From the NCBI GenBank assembly GCA_017555905.1, contig JAFZFP010000004.1, forward strand, positions 1 through 59,006: DNA of 59,006 nt. Direction: 5' to 3'. Under the pieces are notes generated by a model. The model worked only from the letters and a program-made list of their open reading frames with translations, searched no databases and was not told the DNA's origin. Origin of the DNA: Alistipes sp. Its GTDB lineage: Bacteria > Bacteroidota > Bacteroidia > Bacteroidales > Rikenellaceae. Below are positions 17,872-23,517 of the stretch, piece after piece; positions within the stretch are counted from its first letter, which is position 1, and each line of letters opens with the position of its first letter. The translations under genes and the position numbers were made by a program.

Positions 17872-17909
17872 AACGAAAACGGCAGCCACACGATGTGACT
17901 GCCGATCTT
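17872..17909 (-). terminator. Proximal terminator of the fimbrillin operon
   Basis: On the minus strand, CGGCAGTCACA / TGTGGCTGCCG with a short loop, then TTTTCGTT, 50-90 bases past the last gene. Confidence 0.8.
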
Positions 17910-17960: not shown

Positions 17961-18842
17961 TTAATCCCAGCCGCCAACTGAGCCACCGACATTGATTTCT
18001 ATCTTCTGCGGTGAGTTATCAAGAGTAATAGATACTATATACTCTTTGCCAGCATGATATGTAAATATCTCCTCGGTCATATACGATATACCACCCATTA
18101 TTATCTCGACAAATGGTGCATACTCCAATATGCTTTGTGGTACTACAATCACCTCAAAAGTGTCTATAGCCACCTTGCGTGCCTTGATCTTCTGTGCATC
18201 GCCGTGAGGATCTTTCGACACAATGCCTGTGGTGAAGTTTATCAACGCCTGAGGCACTGTGCTGTAGAGGTAGACATCTATATCTTCGGGGAAGGCGTCG
18301 GTGTACTCCTCGCCCTTAACTAGCTTGATGACCACCTTCGAGCACATATGCTTAAACTGCAGTTGCACCGAACCATCCTCCTGCGACACGCCCTCGGCTT
18401 TTGCCCACAAGAAGTCCGATGCCTCGTAGGCGGATAAAGCGCCCTCGGTTGCAGGGAGCGACTGGTCGGTCTGCACTGCCCACTTGTGCTTGTTGATAAA
18501 TGTTGGCTCCATATATGGGTAGTAGCCGTACACATCCATCAGGCCCTCTGCCCAATAGAATGTTCTGCGACCCAACCATGTGCTACCGTCGTAGGTCAAA
18601 GCCTCGTTGTTTATCCAGTTACCCGAGATTTGCAAAGGCATTGCCTGCTCTCCCTCATAGGTTGTGGCATAAAGACCAATTACATCGCCATTTTCAAAAG
18701 ATGTCTCTGTTGCTCGTGTTGAGGGGTGCAAAGCCTCAATGCGCATCACGCCATCCTCAACAACGGGGGGATTATCAATATTCTCTCTCTCGCAGCTCAT
18801 AGCAACCAATGCTAAAGCTGCCATTGCTATATACTTTTTCAT
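17961..18842 (-). CDS. Fimbrillin family lipoprotein
   Basis: A 293-residue exported lipoprotein: MKKYIAMAALALVAMSC with lipobox cysteine at 17. The body matches Bacteroidales fimbrillin (Mfa-like) proteins: an early Arg-Ala-Thr site (STRATETSFENGD) where gingipain-type proteases mature such subunits, YYPYM, a YEASDFLWAKAEG stretch, and a beta-rich second half with VVPQS. It ends in a short Gly-rich tail, INVGGSVGGWD. Likely a structural or tip subunit of a surface fimbria. It is the last gene of the operon, 11 bases after the M64 fusion gene. Confidence 0.82.
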   Translation of the reverse strand: MKKYIAMAALALVAMSCERENIDNPPVVEDGVMRIEALHPSTRATETSFENGDVIGLYATTYEGEQAMPLQISGNWINNEALTYDGSTWLGRRTFYWAEGLMDVYGYYPYMEPTFINKHKWAVQTDQSLPATEGALSAYEASDFLWAKAEGVSQEDGSVQLQFKHMCSKVVIKLVKGEEYTDAFPEDIDVYLYSTVPQALINFTTGIVSKDPHGDAQKIKARKVAIDTFEVIVVPQSILEYAPFVEIIMGGISYMTEEIFTYHAGKEYIVSITLDNSPQKIEINVGGSVGGWD

Positions 18843-18853
18843 ATTGCTATGTC

Positions 18854-21800
18854 TTAGAAGTTTAACTCTGGTTTCTCGCCCATAATCTGAGGCTCGTTAT
18901 GCATTGGGTCGGGGGTGTAATTTACCTCTGCCGAAGAGCGTGTCAACGCCATAGGTACAGGACCGAGCGTATTTACATCATTTGCCTTAAACTTCTCGAA
19001 GGTGTACCCCTCGCCCGCATACTCCATAATACGCTTTACTATCGCCTCGCGCGAGATGGCCGAGTAATATGGTATGTTGTTGTTCATACACGAGTTTGCC
19101 TCCGAGCGATATACTCCACGCTGATGGAAGAAACCTCCCTCGTACATATCGACATACATCTGGAACTGTGGATCGAAAATCAGGTGACTCCACGGCACTT
19201 CGTAGTGGCTCGAGTTAAGCGATAGATTCTGATACCATCCAAGCGACTGAAAATTTAAAAAAACATTATCGTGCTCACAACACCAACATCCACACATATC
19301 GATGAAATCTCCGTGGTAGATATACTCGTCCGCAAGTTTGCCAAATGCGTGACCTCCTACCTCGTGCTGAATAACGCCTCTAAAGTCTTGCGAATAGGGA
19401 TTGCGATGAATACACTGCACCGAAAGAGCAGTATTATCCTCCCACATATATGTTATACCACCATAGACATTAGAGTTCTCTATCACCACCACAGGTGTTT
19501 GATGGAGGTTATCTTTTGTTACAGTAGGCACTTTGCAGGCGTACTCCAAGCACTTCTCTTTGTTAATCTTGAATTGGAAGCCTTTATCACCATAAGCATA
19601 CTGAGACTCAAACAACGACTCTTGATTCATCTTGTAGGTTGTCGGCATGCCGCTATCGGTTGAGTGACCAATGACGGTATAGACATTAAAGTAGTCACGA
19701 TATGTTGTGTATGGCTCTACCGCAAAGAAATGTTCGATAGCTTCATTCATTATCTCCTCGTAGTAGCCCTCGGCAATATCCTTTGCATCGAAGCAATCAC
19801 CCATAAAGACGATGTTTACACCACCACCCTTTGTTGCAGTCTGGTTAGTTATAACATCGCCGTGATTATACTGATAGTCATATTGATCTACCTTAACCAC
19901 CTTATAGTGGTCGTATGCCGTAGGCTTAAATACCAACGAATCGGCACGATTACCTGCACCACGAGCCATTTCATCAAACGAGATAGTTACTTCAACCTTA
20001 CCCGAGCCACTCGAAGGTGTTACGGTCACCCAGTCGGGCTTATGTGTTACGCTCCACTCCATCTCTGATGATGCGCGCACCACCATCTTTCTTGAGTGCG
20101 CAGCGTTAAGAGCGCAAGTGCTCTCCAAGTCGAGGTTAAAATCGCGATATACCGATGGGATATAGTCGCCCCAGTATTGTGCTGTCTGATACTTATATAG
20201 TGCATCCTCTGGCACTTGAACACTAACAGCACGTATTGCTTGCTCCTCAGATCCCTCCCAAGCGGTATTATAAAATGAATGCCCATACATTGTTGGAGGA
20301 GTTTTAGCCAAGCATACAACCTCTTTAAGATAAAGACAACTACACACGCCCCTTATTTCCTTTACACCTGTGTGTAGTATTATTTTTGAGATGTTACCAT
20401 TGAAGGCTGATAGATCTACAGCATCCATTCCCTCTGGTATTTCTAATACACCACCATTTTCAACAACAAAACAATGAAAAGCAAGTTCTCCTATAAATTC
20501 AAGGCTTTTGGGCCACTTCGGAAATACATTAAACTTACAACCATAAAAAGCTCTATTGCCGACTCTCACAAGACTTTCTGGCAATATCAATTCACCCGTA
20601 AATCCAGCGTTTTCAAAGGTGTTATTTCCTATTGAAATCAATCCTTTGGGTAATTCCAAACATCCTGTAAAACTGCAACCACTAAAGGCGGAATCACCTA
20701 TAGTTTTCACCTTACTTGGTATCTTTAGGCTTCCCGTCAACCCAGTGTTTGAAAACGCATCTGCTCCTATTTCCTCTAGATTATCAGGTAGTTTTATCTC
20801 ACAGTTTAAGCGTACACCAGCCCAATGTGTTGATTCAAATGCGCCATCACTAATCTTTCTCACTGAATCCGGTAAGTAAAAGTTATCAAAATGGATTTTT
20901 GCTTGATAGAAAGCTGAGTACCCTATTTCTTCTAAGGATCGTGGTATTGTCAAAGCAAGGCTTTGGGATGAGTCCATTCCACAACAAGAAAACGCACTAT
21001 TACCAATAAGTTTTACACTCTGAGGCAAATTTAAGCTAACAATGTTGTTAGACCAACCAAATGCACACTCGCCAATAATTTCCGTCGAATTCGGAAGGAT
21101 AATTCGTAAAAACTTCTCCGCATCTCGAAACGCAGATTCGGGGACTTTTTTATTTTCAATATTCTCTCCATCACACAAAACAACATCAGAGAGGTTTATG
21201 TTTGTCAACGACAACATATTTTCGCGCATAAATGTAAAGTCGGGTTCATTAAGTCGGCCGATTACCTTCATATTTATAATACGGTCGGAGTCCTTACCCG
21301 CTGCCTCAATAGCAGCCTTAAGTGCGCTGCTACCATCAGTTGAAGCCTCAGGTACTTCGATAATGACATATTCCTTTGCATTACCATCGTGCGAGATTGT
21401 CTCGCTCTCCCAAGGGGTGATCTCCTCGCCAACAAGTTCGAATTCCACGCCCGAGAGTTCCTCCTTCGAAACAGAGATAGTAAACTTATGTAGCTTACCA
21501 GCTTTATATTCAAATGCCTCGCTCTTGCGGAAAAGATAAGGAATACCATCAACCGTAATACGCATAAGTGCCATAGAGGCATCAATGGTTTGCGGAACGA
21601 CAATTGCACGATAGTACTGACCATTAACAACAGGAACGATATCTGTAATTTCGCGTTCTCCGATAGGAGTAACTACGCCAGTTGCCAAGTCGATAGAGGC
21701 TTTACGGATTGTATTGGCAATAAGAGCGTGCTTTTCTACACTTGCCCACTCACCTTCTGCCCAGCCTTCACCTTCGGTGAGTTCCACCTGTACGCCAGCC

Positions 21801-22339
21801 ATCTTATGGTTGAAAGTGATGCGTATGCGTTCATCAGTTGGCATCACATTCTCAACCTTACCCCACAAGAAGTCACTCGCCTCGTAGCCACCCATAAGAG
21901 TTGTTTCGACTGTTGTTGATTGGTCTTGTTGCACCTCGAAAGAGTAGTTGTTTACATTTTCGAGTGCACTGTTGTATGGATAATAACCAATCATATCTAC
22001 AGGCGTAATATTATCACGATAGTAGACAGGATAGTCGGGAGTCCACTTGTACTCTTTCTCATTGAATACATAGCGGACATTGTTCGCCTGATTGCCCTTG
22101 TCAAGCAATGTTCCAGGCACGCCATTTTCATAGTTCACGGCAAAAAGTCCGAAGCCATCACCGTCGCAGAAGCCATCATCGTTAACACGGGTCGTAGTTA
22201 CTTGATCGATAGAGCCATTAATATTAATAGCAATTAGCCCATCAGGAGTCGGTACACTTGGTATCGGCTCATCAAAATCTTGCGTACAGCCAGCAAAGAG
22301 CAGAGCTGTACAAAAAAGTATTGAATATATTTTTTTCAT
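18854..22339 (-). CDS. Fimbrillin/LRR/BACON/M64 metallopeptidase fusion lipoprotein
   Basis: A 1161-residue lipoprotein (MKKIYSILF...LLFAGC, Cys18). Domains in order: a fimbrillin-like region (about 30-325) with an N-terminal TTTRVND site, YYPYN, YEASDFLWGKVE and VVPQT; a BspA-type leucine-rich block (about 395-690) with roughly nine repeats of the LPxSLxxIGxxAFxxC kind; a BACON-like beta domain (about 750-820, ending in VVKVDQYDY); and a C-terminal M64 (IgA peptidase family) catalytic domain with H992-E993-V-G-G-H997 followed by AFGKLADEY. The frame runs upstream to codon -25, but the ATG at 22339 gives the signal peptide. The LRR-coding part (about 20.4-21.2 kb) is visibly AT-richer than the ends, suggesting modular assembly. 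Likely a surface adhesin-protease linked to fimbriae; the substrate is unknown. Confidence 0.85.
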   Translation of the reverse strand: MKKIYSILFCTALLFAGCTQDFDEPIPSVPTPDGLIAININGSIDQVTTTRVNDDGFCDGDGFGLFAVNYENGVPGTLLDKGNQANNVRYVFNEKEYKWTPDYPVYYRDNITPVDMIGYYPYNSALENVNNYSFEVQQDQSTTVETTLMGGYEASDFLWGKVENVMPTDERIRITFNHKMAGVQVELTEGEGWAEGEWASVEKHALIANTIRKASIDLATGVVTPIGEREITDIVPVVNGQYYRAIVVPQTIDASMALMRITVDGIPYLFRKSEAFEYKAGKLHKFTISVSKEELSGVEFELVGEEITPWESETISHDGNAKEYVIIEVPEASTDGSSALKAAIEAAGKDSDRIINMKVIGRLNEPDFTFMRENMLSLTNINLSDVVLCDGENIENKKVPESAFRDAEKFLRIILPNSTEIIGECAFGWSNNIVSLNLPQSVKLIGNSAFSCCGMDSSQSLALTIPRSLEEIGYSAFYQAKIHFDNFYLPDSVRKISDGAFESTHWAGVRLNCEIKLPDNLEEIGADAFSNTGLTGSLKIPSKVKTIGDSAFSGCSFTGCLELPKGLISIGNNTFENAGFTGELILPESLVRVGNRAFYGCKFNVFPKWPKSLEFIGELAFHCFVVENGGVLEIPEGMDAVDLSAFNGNISKIILHTGVKEIRGVCSCLYLKEVVCLAKTPPTMYGHSFYNTAWEGSEEQAIRAVSVQVPEDALYKYQTAQYWGDYIPSVYRDFNLDLESTCALNAAHSRKMVVRASSEMEWSVTHKPDWVTVTPSSGSGKVEVTISFDEMARGAGNRADSLVFKPTAYDHYKVVKVDQYDYQYNHGDVITNQTATKGGGVNIVFMGDCFDAKDIAEGYYEEIMNEAIEHFFAVEPYTTYRDYFNVYTVIGHSTDSGMPTTYKMNQESLFESQYAYGDKGFQFKINKEKCLEYACKVPTVTKDNLHQTPVVVIENSNVYGGITYMWEDNTALSVQCIHRNPYSQDFRGVIQHEVGGHAFGKLADEYIYHGDFIDMCGCWCCEHDNVFLNFQSLGWYQNLSLNSSHYEVPWSHLIFDPQFQMYVDMYEGGFFHQRGVYRSEANSCMNNNIPYYSAISREAIVKRIMEYAGEGYTFEKFKANDVNTLGPVPMALTRSSAEVNYTPDPMHNEPQIMGEKPELNF

Positions 22340-22352
22340 AATGCAAATCATA

Positions 22353-22502
22353 TTAAATATCTCCTCCATAATCCTCTTCGTCAGCTTCCCAGCCGCCAAT
22401 GCCGATATTGACATCGGGGGAGCCCTGACTTACGCCATAGCCCTGCTCAACCTCTACATCGAGCGAGGTAACTTCGGGTGATATATAGTCTGTTTTACGC
22501 AT
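22353..22502 (-). CDS. 49-residue fimbrillin-operon peptide
   Basis: Small ORF starting MRKTDYISPEVTSLDVEVEQ and ending VNIGIGGWEADEEDYGGDI. It fits between two operon genes with gaps of 14 and 13 bases on the same strand, which argues that it is translated. Its last 19 residues nearly duplicate the C-terminus of the preceding fimbrillin (VNVGIGGWETDEEDYGGSAE), and the similarity is visible in DNA too. The start resembles short 'KKxYxSPxVxxLxVxxEQG' peptides that are common beside surface operons in Bacteroidales. No signal peptide is visible. Function unknown. Confidence 0.7.
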   Translation of the reverse strand: MRKTDYISPEVTSLDVEVEQGYGVSQGSPDVNIGIGGWEADEEDYGGDI

Positions 22503-22516
22503 AATAGTTTGGTGTT

Positions 22517-23383
22517 TTACTCCGCTGAGCCGCCATAGTCCTCCTCGTCAGTCTCCCAACCGCCAATGCCGACATTCACGCCATTGCTAACCTTGTTGAG
22601 TGTTACGGTGAACTTGTGCTGCTTGTTAGCCTTGAAAGTCATTGCACGAGTCAAAGTGTAATCAACACCATCTACGGTAACAACAACCAAAGCGCCCTCG
22701 GCAGTGGTCTGTGGAACGATCAAAGCGCGGTACTGTGCGCCATCGAGATAAGGAGTAACCTCTGTAGCGTTGCCAGTTGCAGTTGCTGCGCCGGTTGCGA
22801 GATTGATTGTTGCAGTTGTTTTAACACCACAAATCTTTACAGACTTGGTCGCTGCGGCAAGTGTAGCCTCGGTAAAGCCATCGCCAGGTTTGAGGATAAC
22901 CAATGCATTGCTGAATGTGTGGTTTGTAGTGATGTTTACAGCCTCCTCGGTAGGAGCTACGCCTGTGGTTTTGCCCCACAAGAACTCCGAAGCCTTATAG
23001 TTCTCCAAAGTTGATTGGTCTGCCTTGGTAGCGAATGTATGAGCAGTAGTGCTTACACCCTCGGCATAAGGATAGTAGCAGTAGAAATCTGCCTTTGTAG
23101 TCTGGTCGAGCCAATAGATAGGCGTGTCAGGAGTCCAGGTTGTAGAGTAGGTGAAGCCCATATTGTCTACGTGGTTGCCCGAGGTAGCCAATGCGTTAGG
23201 CTCGTTTACAACGAAGATACCAACCTTGTCGCCAGTCTCGAAAGCAGAGTCGGTAGCACGGGTAAGGGTTGTTGAGATGTTGATTGGAACCTTCTCCTCC
23301 TCAGGCTGAGAAACTTCAATTGTAATGCTCTCACAAGAGATAAGAGCCGTAGCAAGAGCTACCAAAGTAAAAATCTTTTTCAT
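22517..23383 (-). CDS. Fimbrillin family lipoprotein, first gene of operon
   Basis: 288 residues: MKKIFTLVALATALISC with lipobox cysteine at 17, then a Thr-rich start with TTLTRATDSAFETGDKVG, the typical Arg-Ala maturation site and fimbrillin opening. Later motifs YYPYAEG, NYKASEFLWGKTTG, VVPQ-like IVPQT and a Gly-rich acidic tail (NVGIGGWETDEEDYGGSAE) match the fimbrillin family. The simple, Ala/Thr-rich composition suggests the major structural subunit. It leads a four-gene operon; the promoter is about 200 bases upstream with a hairpin in the leader. Confidence 0.83.
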   Translation of the reverse strand: MKKIFTLVALATALISCESITIEVSQPEEEKVPINISTTLTRATDSAFETGDKVGIFVVNEPNALATSGNHVDNMGFTYSTTWTPDTPIYWLDQTTKADFYCYYPYAEGVSTTAHTFATKADQSTLENYKASEFLWGKTTGVAPTEEAVNITTNHTFSNALVILKPGDGFTEATLAAATKSVKICGVKTTATINLATGAATATGNATEVTPYLDGAQYRALIVPQTTAEGALVVVTVDGVDYTLTRAMTFKANKQHKFTVTLNKVSNGVNVGIGGWETDEEDYGGSAE

Positions 23384-23509: not shown

Positions 23510-23517
23510 CCCCCCCC
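23510..23517 (-). repeat. G8 homopolymer in the fimbrillin leader
   Basis: Eight consecutive G on the coding strand, 38 bases upstream of the attenuator-like hairpin and within the predicted 5' UTR. Such runs are prone to slippage. Confidence 0.8.

Follow-up and report, generated by a model that had tools for sequence, protein, structure and literature searches.

Locus and gene organisation

Within a window of 59,006 nucleotides (the whole stretch of DNA analysed) from Alistipes sp. contig JAFZFP010000004.1 (GCA_017555905.1), we studied P0001, a lipoprotein in which a fimbrillin, a BspA-type leucine-rich repeat (LRR) region, a BACON-like domain and an M64-type metallopeptidase are joined in one chain. 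An earlier note on this DNA had proposed these four modules, and Pfam matches or predicted folds bear them out, the third as a BACON-like domain; it had also placed the gene in an operon between two fimbrillins and a small peptide, which holds as well, since the operon runs on the minus strand in the order fimbrillin P3, 49-amino-acid peptide, fusion and fimbrillin P2 with intergenic gaps of 11–14 bases. Conservation is given below over an alignment (A2) of 56 rows, comprising the window protein and 55 of 81 start-assigned proteins (from 89 open reading frames longer than 1050 amino acids). The features of the operon are as follows.

18854..22339, minus strand: P0001, fimbrillin-LRR-BACON-M64 fusion lipoprotein, 1161 amino acids
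22286..22339, minus strand: lipoprotein signal read from the sequence, lipobox FAGC, acceptor Cys18 (Cys in 56/56 aligned rows, a conservation partly built in because start codons were chosen by lipobox)
22187..22192, minus strand: Thr50-Arg51, candidate site of pilin maturation, located past the first strand (Thr or Ser, then Arg or Lys, in 56/56 rows)
21404..22240, minus strand: fimbrillin module (Mfa_like_1), residues 34-312, ending near invariant Trp310
20150..21334, minus strand: BspA-type LRR region, residues 336-730
19877..20143, minus strand: BACON-like domain, residues 733-821
19007..19864, minus strand: M64-type metallopeptidase domain, residues 826-1111
19349..19366, minus strand: HEVGGH, residues 992-997, zinc motif of the form HExxxH, which exceeds HExxH by one residue
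19325..19330, minus strand: Asp1004-Glu1005, aligned with the M64 third zinc ligand and the family Glu (Asp in 54/56 rows, Glu in 56/56)
19277..19294, minus strand: Cys cluster CxCxCC, residues 1016-1021, C-terminal to the zinc motif (C1016 in 54/56 rows, C1018 in 48/56, C1020 in 40/56, C1021 in 41/56)
22517..23383, minus strand: P3, fimbrillin-like lipoprotein, 288 amino acids, first gene of the operon (Mfa_like_1, 5e-61)
22353..22502, minus strand: 49-amino-acid peptide read from the sequence, between P3 and the fusion
17961..18842, minus strand: P2, fimbrillin-like lipoprotein, 293 amino acids, last gene of the operon (Mfa_like_1, 1.8e-48)

The match of P0001 to the Pfam M64 family (PF09471) scored 51.8 bits, above the gathering score of 26, and its catalytic part is predicted to take the M64 fold. 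For the N-terminal part a pilin fold was predicted, with the Mfa3 tip pilin and FimA among the fold matches, as would be expected if this region folds as a fimbrillin. M64_N (PF16217) is absent from the Pfam matches of P0001, and an NCBIfam scan of the protein returned LRR-region matches only, all far under the cut-offs. The low guanine-cytosine (GC) content of the LRR segment, from which the earlier note had supposed an insertion, was observed again; however, the LRR part is low in GC in 113/120 homologous frames, and a recent insertion is therefore rejected.

Distribution and conserved gene order

Relatives were compared in a genus set of 47 M64 frames, which includes other architectures and cut frames, and in a named set of 100 M64 frames at 80 Bacteroidales loci, which are the best 80 of at least 464 confirmed loci and favour close relatives; the two sets overlap, with 17 of the 47 genus frames having an identical counterpart among the named ones. 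The handles L060 and L153 stand for the same genes, and so do L061 and L184. The same four-module order, for which the earlier note had suggested a search, was found in 92 of the 100 named frames (counting frames truncated within the fimbrillin, as well as one fragment of a gene that is broken in L077) and in 31 of the 47 genus frames. Five of the eight named frames without the full order begin at locus bases 1–3 and one at base 129, and the remaining two are a frame in L082 that begins 1.5 kb into its locus and the other piece of the broken gene in L077. By NCBI rank, the 80 named loci belong to Rikenellaceae (23), Bacteroidaceae (22), Prevotellaceae (14), Muribaculaceae (3) and Porphyromonadaceae (2), with 16 lacking a family, and at least 38 of them are labelled as ruminant or deer samples.

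The gene neighbourhood is conserved along with the modules. In 79/80 named loci a P2-like frame follows the last M64 frame closely, its start falling anywhere from 37 bases ahead of that frame's end to 233 bases past it; the sole locus without this follower, L093, stops inside the M64 frame. Upstream we found a P3-like fimbrillin gene in 34 of the named cases and, in others, a peptide of ~35–54 amino acids (by a loose pattern). Matches above 200 bits to the M64 part occur in 21 of 90 same-genus genomes versus 0 of 59 from other genera (both totals deduced from genome numbering), and P2 matches above 200 bits likewise occur in 21 same-genus genomes; 20 genomes have both. The two mismatches are G068, where the M64 match begins at contig base 7, and G014, where a 104-bit M64 fragment lies beside P2. 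Taken as sequence comparisons, these patterns make the fusion beside a fimbrillin gene look like an established system in Bacteroidales.

The HExxxH zinc motif and its branch of M64

The canonical M64 motif is HExxHxxxGxxD(E), whose two His and Asp are the ligands of the catalytic zinc and whose following Glu binds a structural zinc, according to the excerpted texts of PMC12237041 and PMC12402451. In P0001 the corresponding HEVGGH carries an extra residue, as the earlier note had observed, and the same HExxxH spacing is present in 45/47 genus frames and 90/100 named frames, or 135/147 when pooled (47 plus 100, 17 of them shared). Of the 12 frames without it, 10 are the leading copy of a tandem set, and the remaining two derive from a single broken gene. 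The Gly ahead of the second His is invariant across the 56-row alignment, so that the motif reads HExxGH. This distribution over frames rules out chance or a sequencing error behind the extra Gly, and judged by it HEVGGH is a clade trait.

Other residues of the site were also found to differ. In a hand-picked sample of 23 proteins, 13 carry HExxH and all 13 have the structural-zinc C-x-M...C-x-x-C, while the structural-zinc CxxC is missing from the sample's 10 HExxxH proteins (among which L184 and L061 are one gene) and from all 147 genus and named frames. P0001 retains one of the three structural-zinc Cys (C1084) and lacks CxxC; the CxCxCC cluster may substitute for the lost Cys. Met1085, present in 56/56 rows, aligns with the C-x-M of 3p1v and 4df9, and from this alignment we infer that it is the Met-turn methionine. 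Three residues before the third ligand, Lys1001 (Lys in 55/56 rows) stands in place of the M64 Gly, though Gly does occur there in at least one further HExxxH protein (L176:4182-5879). Both His of the zinc motif lie on one predicted helix, 986-999. In a tree of 76 rows built with the motif masked, the split between HExxH proteins and the rest received a Shimodaira-Hasegawa-like approximate likelihood ratio test (SH-aLRT) value of 100 (quick method, unrooted).

A 2025 network study states, in the available part of its text, that all clusters keep HEXXHXXXGXXD, save for two clusters with Asp-to-Glu and a trypanosomatid cluster that lacks the residues (PMC12402451). Since the signature is claimed there for all clusters, the HExxxH branch either lies outside the set of that study or was overlooked, and it is not covered by the M64 signature as printed in that part. 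A Pfam scan of seven HExxxH proteins of other architecture gave Mfa_like_1 in none, LRR-type matches in all seven (one below cut-off), BACON in two, and thioredoxin- or AhpC-like matches in two (one above and one below cut-off). In L071 and L067 the thioredoxin-like or AhpC-TSA match sits between LRR and M64, that of L067 being the one below cut-off. The LRR-type matches in other architectures suggest that fusion to a binding region is common in the HExxxH branch, of which the fimbrillin fusion is, on these comparisons, one stable lineage. By the features compared, P0001 is not to be filed as a standard igalysin; it represents a homologous branch that probably works like one.

Tandem triads and ligand-lacking copies

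At eight named loci (L138, L139, L147 and L149–L153) three fusions lie in tandem. Among first copies, substitutions affect the second His in 8/8 triads, the Asp in 7/8 and the first His in 2/8; the second copy has the complete motif in 8/8; and the third keeps HExxGH, with the Tyr after Asp-Glu replaced, in 8/8. The tree groups its seven ligand-lacking copies in a single clade (SH-aLRT 99), although these include one identical pair from the same contig and leave out the copies of L139, L150 and L152. A locus of the genus set, L058, also holds a tandem triad of fusions.

Pilin features and a proposed pilus-tip protease

Type V pilins are lipoproteins cleaved by clostripain, the groove receives the C-terminus of the next pilin, and tip pilins typically carry a C-terminal extra or binding domain (excerpts of PMC12632263); type V pilins commonly have a Trp just ahead of their final C-terminal residues (excerpt of PMC5789003). 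In the fusion, the lipid-modified Cys is followed by a predicted strand and then by Thr/Ser-Arg/Lys, a site present in 56/56 rows, and all 56 rows also have a Trp close to where the fimbrillin domain ends. In a pattern search, a lipobox was present in 39/39 P3-like proteins and a T/S-R/K-type site in 36/39; of the P2-like frames, some of which are cut, 71/81 and 70/81 have them, respectively. By its sequence, the fimbrillin part thus resembles a type V pilin of the kind that is cleaved, and as the other modules occupy the C-terminus of the fimbrillin domain, a tip-type subunit is suggested.

We therefore favour the view that P0001 is a protease-bearing accessory subunit, of the tip type, in a type V-like pilus, a judgement that we regard as evenly balanced. 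The mechanism that we propose runs from cleavage and filament assembly through tip position and zinc geometry to activity and substrate. The precursor would be exported as an outer-membrane lipoprotein, and a trypsin-like surface protease of the clostripain type would cleave after Arg51, so that the lipidated first strand is lost and the fimbrillin groove opened. A neighbouring fimbrillin, P3 or P2, would fill this groove, and the LRR-BACON-M64 part would project outward, where the LRR may attach to a protein or to a cell surface, and the BACON-like domain may set the spacing or orientation of the enzyme. Zinc would be held by H992, H997 and D1004, with E993 as the base, and by analogy with M49 peptidases we suppose that a bulge in the active-site helix accommodates the extra residue before the second His. 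M49 peptidases have HEXXGH in most cases and HEISH or HELMH in some, and the HEXXGH enzymes are active, as given in the published excerpts.

Several observations weigh against this interpretation. No recognised anchor gene (Mfa2, PF08842) is present in the operon, and the sole match in the genome (95.2 bits) is on contig C11, away from it; the 80 named loci gave no match to this Mfa2 protein in a single-sequence search, which distant anchors would escape. P2 could serve as the anchor. The pilus reading was drawn from genes and predicted folds, and since the full structure model has a predicted template modelling score (pTM) of 0.46, the placement of the modules cannot be read from it. The donated strand is disputed even in P. 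gingivalis, and the rules of assembly are still argued in the excerpted literature. Finally, the loss of the second His in all eight first copies suggests that binding without catalysis is tolerated in triads.

Alternative explanations

Some of these points would fit a surface-exposed adhesive lipoprotease that never becomes part of a filament and has its fimbrillin fold only for scaffolding or dimerisation, an unlikely alternative but one to be taken seriously. An operon lacking a recognised anchor gene agrees with it, as do the lipoboxes kept in all three proteins (the fusion, P2 and P3), and to our knowledge many Mfa_like_1 proteins have no demonstrated pilus. However, the invariant T/S-R/K site and the constant fimbrillin company would then be needless. 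We give a small chance to P0001 being a binding protein with an inert or nearly inert M64 domain, HExxxH forming no competent zinc site: in a regular helix a His pair at i, i+5 does not share a face, Lys1001 stands where metzincins have Gly, two of the three structural-zinc Cys are gone, and paralogues without zinc ligands exist. Yet HExxxH is retained in all frames but the tandem first copies and the one broken gene, and the active M49 enzymes with HEXXGH argue for a working site.

The earlier note had pointed to host IgA as a possible substrate, and an IgA peptidase for immune evasion would agree with the Pfam name of the family, with ThomasA of T. ramosa, a distant M64 member that cleaves IgA according to the excerpted report, and with the labelling of M64 genes in S24-7 genomes as IgA peptidase (excerpt of PMC4936053). 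The family name and the distant ThomasA are nevertheless its whole support, and the tested Bacteroides M64 leaves intact IgA uncut, as given in the part of the report available; we have dropped IgA specificity as the default reading and consider it very improbable. The overall interpretation in that note is supported in part. What stands is a conserved system in which a pilin-type subunit with fimbrillins as partners bears an M64-type protease; the IgA target is unsupported, and the LRR insertion is rejected. Least credible is a maturation protease that trims neighbouring fimbrillins: a fimbrillin gene does adjoin the fusion in 79/80 named loci, but the candidate site is Arg/Lys, for which the genome has a match to the clostripain family (peptidase C11; one match, 80.3 bits), and BF3526 cleaves mainly near N-termini and near Pro, in the excerpted description.

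Genomic surroundings

The C-terminal tail of P3 is GVNVGIGGWETDEEDYGGSAE, and the tail pattern is found in 39/39 P3-like proteins of the named loci. The 49-amino-acid peptide ends in a near copy of this tail (15/17 residues identical), shows no visible signal peptide in its sequence and has no Pfam or NCBIfam match; similar peptides lie upstream of the fusions of relatives, and several carry a shortened tail pattern. One further feature was recorded 3' of P2.

17880..17904, minus strand: terminator-like hairpin (pattern scan, consensus match only; the scan of the region found 10 hairpins versus 5.1 expected)

Another terminator-like hairpin, of 20 pairs, lies in the leader 5' of P3 (23429-23474 of the window, minus strand), and together with a run of eight G near 23510 it may point to attenuation or slippage. 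An invertible promoter upstream was rejected, as there was no clean inverted repeat (best, 32 nucleotides at 75%).

Elsewhere in the genome, seven more Mfa_like_1 matches were found, all on contig C12, where they form a cluster at 57690-67176 (L165) with some frames of up to 797 amino acids. The second M64 gene of the genome is of the ordinary 433-amino-acid kind with M64_N. Absences from this genome are soft, because it is 87% complete and in 29 contigs. Among relatives, ~30 named loci besides L111 (L111:11251-17693), many of them from Bacteroidaceae or Prevotellaceae, have a WG-repeat lipoprotein and a secreted-looking protein without a Pfam match 3' of P2, often followed by a serine/threonine kinase-like gene and a gene without a Pfam match (Pfam names from L111 only). 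In L046, L051, L057 and L059 the P2-like fimbrillins are in longer frames (645–988 amino acids) that end VRCV-like.

Comparison with known systems and implications

The M64 igalysins BF3526 (4df9/9qdi) and BACOVA_00663 (3p1v) have HExxH where the fusion has HExxxH; the fusion also differs in its Lys instead of Gly before the Asp, in lacking CxxC and an M64_N match, and in the joining of M64 to a fimbrillin, an LRR and a BACON-like domain. With type V tip pilins (Mfa3, Mfa5 and Bacteroides tip pilins) it shares a lipoprotein precursor, an Arg/Lys site, a Trp at the domain end and an extra C-terminal domain, and with Mfa3 the two-domain pilin fold; unlike them, its extra part is an LRR plus a metallopeptidase, its operon has no recognised anchor, and its assembly into a filament is a proposal. 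M49 dipeptidyl peptidase III has a comparable hexapeptide zinc motif, HEXXGH, with pentapeptide members (HEISH, HELMH) within M49 according to the published excerpts, but it is cytosolic and we claim no homology to it. BspA-type LRR adhesins (4fs7 and others) have the same LRR_5 repeats, whereas in the fusion the LRR is one of four modules. In the open-licence PubMed Central (PMC) literature we found no description of a fimbrillin-LRR-BACON-M64 protease and no co-mention of fimbrillin, leucine-rich repeat and metallopeptidase in a Bacteroid context; fimbrillin and M64 are mentioned together there in PMC4936053 alone. A protease on a pilus-type subunit thus looks established in relatives but undescribed.

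More broadly, and with somewhat less assurance than an even chance would carry, we suggest that type V pili with a protease at the tip are widespread among Bacteroidales and that their enzyme is a separate M64 branch with an HExxGH site outside current family definitions, including operons with ligand-lacking, full and variant copies side by side. If true, the pilus tips of gut Bacteroidales bear enzymes besides binding domains, and a cell could bind and cut protein away from its own surface. The HExxGH branch revises the stated M64 signature and makes M64 a second family, next to M49, to mix pentapeptide and hexapeptide zinc motifs; because both motif lengths coexist in M64, the effect of the insertion is directly comparable there. 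The ligand-lacking copies of the triads suggest a division of labour between binding and cutting.
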